Assembly: GCF_025869515.1 (NCBI RefSeq)
Contig: NZ_JAOZVR010000058.1
Span: 1 to 64,000, forward strand
Direction of reading: 5' to 3'
DNA length: 64,000 nucleotides
Source of the DNA: Ferrovibrio sp.
GTDB lineage: Bacteria; Pseudomonadota; Alphaproteobacteria; Ferrovibrionales; Ferrovibrionaceae
The stretch's first letter is position 1; each line of letters opens with the position of its first letter. The notes beneath the pieces are model-generated. The model ran no database searches, was not told the DNA's origin, and saw only the letters and a list, made by a program, of their open reading frames with translations. Below, one piece after another: positions 45,945-47,166 of the stretch. Made by a program: the position numbers and the translations under genes.

Positions 45945-46436
45945 TCAGTTTTTGTGCTTGCGGGCGGCCAGTTCGAGCGCTTCCAGCAGCTGGGTCTCGA
46001 TCTTGCCGCCGCTGCCCTGGATGCGCTGGCCCATCACGACATAGAGCGCGTCGATCTGCGCCGCGATGATGTCGAGCTGGATCGGGCTCGGGGCGCCCAT
46101 ATCCTTGGTGAAATCGTTGAGCGATTTGGCAAAGGCGGTGAGCAGCGGATACTTGAACATGCCGCCCATGCCCTTGATCTCGAGCGAGGCGCCGCGGATC
46201 GCCTGCATCGCCTGGTCGCTGCCGTGCCGGCCCAGTGCCACCTGGTCCAGCGCGCTGCGCAGCAGGCGCAGCTTCTCGGCGACCTCGACGGTGAACTGGT
46301 CGGTGGCCTTCTCGACCACGGCTTCCAGCCGCTTCAGTTCTTCCGGCTCCAGCTTGAGCCGGAACCCCTTTTTGAAGTTGACCGCCTTGCGCCGCAGCTC
46401 CTGGGCCGGCGGCATGAAAACTGGTTTCTTGCTCAT
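45945..46436 (-). CDS. Hpt-like helical protein lacking the phospho-histidine
   Basis: A 163-residue all-helical protein. Residues 75-110 (DQAMQAIRGASLEIKGMGG, then MFKYPLLTAFAKSLNDF) align by pattern with the Hpt phosphotransfer core H-x-L-K-G-x2-x3-G, but Leu85 stands where the phospho-histidine should be. The gene follows a receiver-domain gene on the same strand with a 26-base gap. It may bind a receiver without transferring phosphate. Function not established; similarity is judged by eye. Confidence 0.7.
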   Translation of the reverse strand: MSKKPVFMPPAQELRRKAVNFKKGFRLKLEPEELKRLEAVVEKATDQFTVEVAEKLRLLRSALDQVALGRHGSDQAMQAIRGASLEIKGMGGMFKYPLLTAFAKSLNDFTKDMGAPSPIQLDIIAAQIDALYVVMGQRIQGSGGKIETQLLEALELAARKHKN

Positions 46437-46462
46437 CCTGAGAGGCTGGCCCGTCGTTCCTG

Positions 46463-46996
46463 TCAGATGGCTTCAGCCATGACGCGGCGCTCCGGCCCGC
46501 CATAATCCGGCATTCTGCGGCGCCGGCGGTCCGGCCCGAAATACTCGCCGATCCGCACGAACTGGCGCGGTCGCGCGATGGCGGCGGCAAGGCGGGTGTA
46601 GAAGCCGTTGACGGTATAGGGCTTGGCGACGAATTCCGACACGCCGCAATCGCGGGCGCGGCAGACATATTCCTCTTCCGAATTCGCCGTCATCATCACC
46701 ACCGGCATCATGCGGTTGGGCGAGCCGGCGTCGTTGCGCAGCCAGTGCACGATATCCATGCCGTCGCGACCGAGCTTTTCCTGGCTCAGCGCCCATTCGG
46801 TGATCATGATATCGGTGCGCCCCATGCGCAGGACGTTGATGGCGGTGTCGAAATCGCGGGCGCGGTCGATGTATTGCGCATCCAGCATCTGCAGCACGTC
46901 GCGCACCATCTGGCCCATCAATCGGTTGGGCTCGACGACCAGGAAACTGATCTTCGAGAAATCGATACGCTCATGATCGGCCATGTCTTCGCTCAC
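46463..46996 (-). CDS. atypical response-regulator receiver protein
   Basis: A 177-residue single receiver domain with a basic tail. The CheY fold is clear (KISFLVVEPNRLMGQMVRDVL at the start; MMTANSEEEY near 103; FVAKPYTVNGF near 123 with the conserved Lys125). The acidic pocket is altered: Glu22-Pro23 replace the usual Asp-Asp, and Glu67 (DIMITEW) stands at the phospho-acceptor position. The tail has FGPDRRRRRMPDYGGPERR, a motif seen in related alphaproteobacterial receivers. Glu may mimic the phosphorylated state. It is probably cotranscribed with the Hpt-like gene. An AT-rich promoter with TACAAT lies upstream. Confidence 0.85.
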   Translation of the reverse strand: MSEDMADHERIDFSKISFLVVEPNRLMGQMVRDVLQMLDAQYIDRARDFDTAINVLRMGRTDIMITEWALSQEKLGRDGMDIVHWLRNDAGSPNRMMPVVMMTANSEEEYVCRARDCGVSEFVAKPYTVNGFYTRLAAAIARPRQFVRIGEYFGPDRRRRRMPDYGGPERRVMAEAI

Positions 46997-47143
46997 CGCT
47001 CAGTTCCTCCCGCGAACGGGTGAACATAAATTGTACTAGAAGATGATCATTAGCAAAAGCTCGTTAAAGTAGTGTTTTGCCTTAAGCGGTAAGTATCATG
47101 CCCGGCCCGCGTGGATCGAGTAAATTCTCGGTAATCCGCCTGT

Positions 47144-47163
47144 GCAGCCGGTGCGTCGGCTGC
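47144..47163 (-). terminator. hairpin after the lpoA-like gene
   Basis: GCAGCCG (47144-47150) pairs with CGGCTGC (47157-47163) four bases after the stop on the minus strand. No U tract follows, so it is at best a weak or rho-assisted terminator. The remaining part of this gap is AT-rich and holds the receiver-gene promoter. Confidence 0.4.
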
Positions 47164-47166
47164 GGA

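Follow-up and report, generated by a model that had tools for sequence, protein, structure and literature searches.

The two genes at positions 45,945 to 46,996 of the window, which is the whole stretch of 64,000 nucleotides of Ferrovibrio sp. DNA analysed here, probably encode a Cle-type receiver controlled by c-di-GMP and a dedicated pseudo-Hpt protein that serves as its docking partner. An earlier inspection of the DNA (the sequence-only reading) described a receiver with Glu67 at the phospho-Asp position and Glu-Pro where the Asp pair should stand, and a neighbouring Hpt-like protein with Leu85 at the His position. It interpreted them as a phosphate-free pair derived from a phosphorelay, with Glu67 perhaps fixing an active state. 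Both sets of residues are found as described when the receiver is numbered from its GTG codon, so that the observation is confirmed, and the interpretation is partly supported. Absent from that reading are the Arg-rich tail of the receiver, which is of the c-di-GMP type, and the fact that pairs of this kind form a broad family within the class. The positions of the features are summarized in Table 1.

Table 1. Features of the receiver and pseudo-Hpt genes and their positions in the window
Feature	Position	Strand	Remark
Gap of 170 bp between the presumed LppC-like gene and the receiver gene; possible own promoter	46997..47166	-	gap between genes
Cle-like receiver gene, CheY-type receiver with Arg-rich tail	46463..46996	-	177 aa counted from GTG
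Glu22-Pro23 codons, replacing the metal-binding Asp pair	46928..46933	-	V20 V21 E22 P23 N24
Glu67 codon (GAA), phospho-Asp position	46796..46798	-	E67 within ITEW, numbering from GTG
Arg-rich tail, residues 142-171, predicted c-di-GMP binding site	46484..46573	-	tandem YFGPDRR (152-158) and YGGPERR (165-171)
Gene of the pseudo-Hpt protein (163 aa), predicted helical bundle of the CheA-P1 type	45945..46436	-	26 bp past receiver stop codon
Conserved N-terminal motif, pseudo-Hpt residues 13-25, predicted disordered	46362..46400	-	conservation; pLDDT ~40
Leu85 codon, Hpt His position	46182..46184	-	S84-L85-E86-I87-K88-G89

The receiver matches PF00072 above the cut-off (E 6e-14). It has Glu67 instead of Asp at the phosphate site and Pro23 instead of the second Asp of the metal-binding pair, and it retains the switch Thr/Ser and the active-site Lys (T103 and K125). 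It may start at either of two codons, because an SD-like GGAGG at 47006-47010 lies 9 nt upstream of the GTG codon, whereas alignments with orthologues begin at ATG 46984, four codons downstream. Among the 27 receivers that have Glu at the phosphate site and are paired with an Hpt-like protein, which form a single branch as described below, this Glu, Arg115 and Lys125 are invariant and the second metal-binding Asp is missing in 26. The loss of this Asp indicates that the Glu site does not function as an active site.

The C-terminus of the receiver consists of RPRQFVRIGEYFGPDRRRRRMPDYGGPERR and a few further residues. This tail is an exact tandem of [YF]xGP[DE][RK]R, and a c-di-GMP-binding region with this motif is the defining trait of the Cle proteins (PMC5677366). 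When the tail is compared by sequence with the PDB, the CleD peptide 6SFT is the single match (E 1.6e-5). The first motif, Y-F-G-P-D/E-R-R, is present in all 27 Glu receivers, with Glu for Asp in one of them, and the strict motif is matched just once in 11 of the 27. R115 is equated with CleD R113 by spacing alone. CleD has Glu70 at its phosphate site and is fully functional when this residue is replaced by Ala (E70A); CleA is likewise functional with D67A, but not with mutations of the Arg residues (PMC5677366). Because the receiver has a Cle-type tail and CleD E70A is functional, c-di-GMP is most likely the input of the receiver, and the state of the receiver is probably set by something other than Glu67, as judged by analogy with these proteins. 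The window's genome encodes 12 GGDEF domains and one FliM, which has the CheY-docking motif ILNQDEIDSLL near its N-terminus.

The suggestion that Glu67 fixes an active state is doubtful in view of this tail, the behaviour of CleD E70A and the loss of the second Asp in 26 of the 27 Glu receivers. In its full form, this alternative holds that Glu67 is a built-in phosphomimic, that the receiver is constantly active and that the pseudo-Hpt is merely a docking partner. Among the residues that replace Asp in pseudo-receivers Glu is the commonest, and in several regulators it acts as a phosphate mimic (PMC12632262); T103 and K125, the residues that usually partner a phosphomimic, are retained, and Glu occupies the phosphate site in every receiver of the branch. 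Nevertheless, we consider this alternative unlikely, because neither the full function of CleD E70A nor the missing metal-binding Asp agrees with it, and because a tail of the c-di-GMP type makes a constant on-state unnecessary. The invariance of Glu67 in the branch, even though CleD E70A works, hints at some role for this residue.

The Hpt-like protein scores 19.8 bits against PF01627, below the cut-off of 24.6 bits, and has Leu85 where functional Hpt proteins have the His of HxxKG. Its resemblance to Hpt, noted by the sequence-only reading, is borne out by both a sequence profile and a structural model, which place it with the Hpt/CheA-P1 helical bundles. The homologue profile of its family matches the CheA P1 structures 1i5n, 2ld6 and 8c5v with E values of ~1e-5 to 1e-4. 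The AlphaFold2 model (pLDDT 80.2, pTM 0.78) has helices at residues 47-67, 73-93 (which contains L85), 97-110, 118-136 and 145-161, and its first 26 residues are disordered (pLDDT ~40). The best structural match of this model is 3kyj, the P1 domain of CheA3 bound to CheY6 (Z 13.8, rmsd 2.8 over 119 residues). CheA P1 domains are its best matches in general, with Z of 12-14, where helical bundles match by chance near Z ~13, and the Foldseek E value is 0.1. The sequence match is therefore stronger evidence than the fold match, which is barely above the chance range for helical bundles. In the disordered N-terminal region, L14 is invariant in both alignments and K17 is nearly invariant; this motif is possibly a binding peptide, as far as conservation and the model suggest.

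Lys88, Arg60, Asn20 and Tyr132 are invariant in the pseudo-Hpt proteins of the 27 Glu pairs, and the Hpt surface (KG, GG, F and YPL) is kept around the lost His. Another His, at column 127 (46056-46058, minus strand) next to the conserved Asp129, is present in 86 of 89 Asp/His pairs, in 28 of 28 Asp/non-His pairs and in 18 of 27 Glu pairs. As a substitute phosphate site it was rejected, since Gln stands at this position in the window protein and in the Ferrovibrio orthologues; no other His is kept throughout the Glu branch. Plant AHP6 is a decoy that blocks phosphotransfer. The pseudo-Hpt could act in the same manner between other Hpt/CheA proteins and receivers, and the surface that is kept around the lost His, as well as the presence of CheA and other Hpt domains in the genome, is consistent with such a role. 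However, the pseudo-Hpt is tied to one receiver type, which itself lacks the Asp, and nothing ties it to other receivers, so that a decoy is very unlikely.

An orthologous pair is found in eight of nine same-genus genomes, the ninth genome being 72% complete. Glu and Leu are retained in all eight pairs (G001-G008), in which the identity of the Hpt-like protein among orthologues is 67-85% and both key codons undergo silent changes (GAA/GAG and CTC/CTG). This result indicates that the observation is not noise. An intact Asp and His would have argued against the sequence-only reading, but among homologues this ancestral type is present in distant ones only, not in the close orthologues. In the comparisons run, purifying selection acts on both genes, dN/dS being 0.06-0.42 for one and 0.08-0.44 for the other. 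Loss of both phosphate sites might by itself suggest a decaying, non-functional pair. There is hardly any chance that this is so, because dN/dS is 0.06-0.44 in every comparison run and the pair is kept in the genus and on one old branch across eight families; the two genes were accordingly rejected as pseudogenes.

The Ferrovibrio loci are among the closest to the window pair, and in those compared the pair follows the same upstream gene of 494-561 aa, which we take to be LppC-like. In other families the flanking genes differ. The neighbourhood outside Ferrovibrio gives no functional clue (methyltransferase, Ldh_2, amidase, ABC, EamA, transketolase, RsmB and pyruvate kinase), no motility genes adjoin the pair in the loci examined, and a promoter scan of the region upstream of the pair found no minus-strand site.

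Receivers of this type that adjoin or are fused to an Hpt are common in the class Alphaproteobacteria, where Hpt relatives are found at E <=1e-8 in 121 of 288 genomes. From this class 173 distinct same-strand pairs were collected, in which a receiver is adjacent to or fused with Hpt; they were drawn mostly from the loci of Hpt matches and from selected stretches of the match list rather than from all matches. An earlier count over fewer loci gave 114 pairs. According to which amino acids occupy the Asp and His positions, the 173 pairs are divided into Asp/His (89), Asp/non-His (28), Asn/His (26) and Glu/non-His (27), and three are gapped at the Asp position; neither Glu/His nor Asn/non-His occurs among them. 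The His-site residue of the 27 Glu pairs is Leu in 14, Phe in 10, Tyr in two and Ile in one. A 2025 review counts 90 domains without His among 10,312 Hpt domains, and 3,111 without Asp among 152,269 receivers (PMC12632262); from these rates both losses would coincide by chance in ~2 in 10,000 cases if independent, which is a rough guide because of shared descent. The Asn receivers (e.g. L027, L029, L030, L033 and L038) have an intact second metal-binding Asp, and all 26 adjoin an Hpt with intact His, that is, a donor without an acceptor. L005, a paralogue encoded on contig 12 of the same genome as the window, is an exception to this pairing of residues: its Asp is replaced by Arg and its Lys by Leu, and a His-bearing Hpt lies on the opposite strand. 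The opposite-strand pairs L005 and L044 were included in the earlier count; under the same-strand rule L005 is dropped and its Hpt is placed among the 40 unpaired ones mentioned below.

Natural fusions of receiver and Hpt account for 54 of the 173 pairs, all of the Asp type (41 Asp/His and 13 Asp/non-His) and none of the Glu or Asn type. These fusions in relatives show that the two domains belong together. Fused proteins with an intact Asp and Leu at the His site include L069, L088, L103, L116, L118, L150 and L152, among others. The model of the fusion L099 has pLDDT 84.6 and pTM 0.75, and all of the 50 Foldseek matches listed for it are receiver matches. In the Glu pairs the receiver comes first on the same strand in 27 of 27, with 12-176 bp between the matched domains. 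If the two proteins were mere neighbours that do not act together, the pseudo-Hpt would have another job; their interaction is predicted only, and for another 40 Hpt relatives the same strand carries no receiver within 400 bp. This possibility is quite unlikely, because adjacency is kept across eight families with different flanks, the domains are fused in relatives and the receiver-first order is retained. Co-variation between the two proteins (mutual information, APC-corrected) was analysed for 170 of the 173 pairs, three being dropped for gaps, and gave no clear receiver-Hpt interface; the highest-scoring pairs, V83/W85/Y127 with N107/R81, probably reflect branch structure.

The 170 pairs whose phosphate site is D, E or N supplied 111 pairs for a tree, from which the key columns were excluded. 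All 27 Glu pairs lie on one side of a single branch with full support, and this branch spans eight families. The Glu pairs thus stem from one ancient double loss. They have since been conserved for a long time, and their His site has drifted from one bulky hydrophobic residue to another. Elsewhere in the tree His is lost several times with Asp retained. Because the 27 pairs derive from one event, their perfect co-occurrence does not represent 27 independent losses, and the independent-pairs test for co-loss, with one independent contrast on this tree, gives no statistical proof of repeated co-loss. Derivation of a phosphate-free pair from a phosphorelay-type ancestor, as the sequence-only reading proposed, is supported, since relatives with intact Asp and His make up 89 of the 173 pairs and a single derived branch contains the Glu/hydrophobic pairs.

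A control search was carried out from the receiver side at 70 loci, 40 of which were picked for their absence from the Hpt list. This search alone yields 48 distinct receivers, 29 of them with an Hpt-like frame within 600 bp, a figure that is conservative because of the way the 40 loci were picked; four of the other 19 lie less than 450 bp from the end of a stretch. For L305, an Asn receiver of the control set, the Hpt-like match is gapped at the His position. Distinct Glu receivers number 31 in total, namely the 27 paired ones, three near stretch ends (L257, L271 and L316) and L003. In the Glu branch, all 27 Glu receivers with readable surroundings have an Hpt partner. L003, from the window's genome, falls outside this branch in the receiver-only tree, where branch support is weak, and its nearest Hpt relative found lies ~2.8 kb off on the other strand and has Trp at the His site. 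L003 and this Hpt may represent a second, independent double loss. The chemotaxis region of contig 3 in which they lie (L252:4487-5194, L003) encodes the Trp-bearing Hpt relative, a STAS protein, CheA and the Glu receiver, which has a Cle-like tail.

Given its age and conservation, the pair probably functions in signalling without phosphate. In the mechanism we favour, the receiver would take up no phosphate, and c-di-GMP bound to its C-terminal tandem Arg motif would replace phosphorylation as the input. The pseudo-Hpt keeps the predicted CheA-P1/Hpt bundle and the LxxKG surface; with a bulky hydrophobic residue at the His site it could not donate phosphate. It would most likely dock on the old phosphotransfer face of the receiver as a stable partner, and would hold back the receiver, scaffold it or hand it over to its target, for which FliM, the flagellar switch protein, is the probable candidate. 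Several results speak against this mechanism, namely the lack of a clear co-variation signal, the fold match close to chance level, the lack of motility genes next to the pair, the single strict motif in 11 of the 27 Glu receivers, the common descent of the 27 pairs and the invariance of Glu67. We infer c-di-GMP binding, docking, partner switching and motor output for this pair, the first of these from the tail motif and the published work on Cle proteins.

A broader interpretation is offered tentatively, as one that we hold to be possible but not the likelier outcome. The pair would be a phosphorelay offshoot in which one ancient loss of both phosphate residues turned the old docking face into a c-di-GMP partner switch, so that Alphaproteobacteria would have Cle-type effectors with a dedicated, apparently undescribed Hpt partner. 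Asp/His, Asn/His, Asp/no His and Glu/no His would then be the four stable combinations; Glu/His and Asn/no His were not observed. A literature search of open-licence papers, a set that leaves most subscription papers outside, found no description of an Hpt partner for Cle proteins. It is not settled by what means pseudo-receivers and pseudo-Hpt proteins act when phosphate plays no part; according to the 2025 review, the activation mechanisms of bacterial pseudo-receivers remain a mystery (PMC12632262). The pairs form a natural series, in which the same two domains have both, one or neither of the phosphate residues, mostly with a c-di-GMP-type tail, and the step from phosphate to second messenger is therefore testable by comparing natural variants. 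In addition, the finding suggests a partner of the Cle proteins.

Plant AHP6 and Pseudomonas FimL have the Hpt fold without the phospho-His and serve as inhibitor or scaffold. We know of no case in which either is paired with a receiver that lacks the Asp and bears a c-di-GMP tail. The pseudo-Hpt resembles CheA P1/Hpt domains (3kyj, 1i5n and 2ld6) in its predicted bundle, its KG-GG-F-YPL surface and its sequence profile, but differs from them in that it has a hydrophobic residue for His, stands alone and has a conserved N-terminal motif. HmrX of Caulobacter (CC_1220; PMC11481889) is likewise a stand-alone CheA-P1-like Hpt, which affects motility and holdfast, but it has His81, and its gene number is not adjacent to any cle gene number. 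The receiver shares with the pseudo-receivers (ALR/PsR) the replacement of the missing Asp by Glu, although the accessible text of PMC12632262 treats neither Cle proteins nor paired losses in Hpt and receiver. The closest known systems also include CleA-CleE of Caulobacter (PMC5677366). The receiver differs from them in having a conserved pseudo-Hpt partner gene, the word Hpt being absent from the main text of that paper, and resembles them in its CheY-type receiver domain with a C-terminal tandem Arg motif, in the conserved Arg near helix 4 and, in the case of CleD, in the Glu at the phosphate site.
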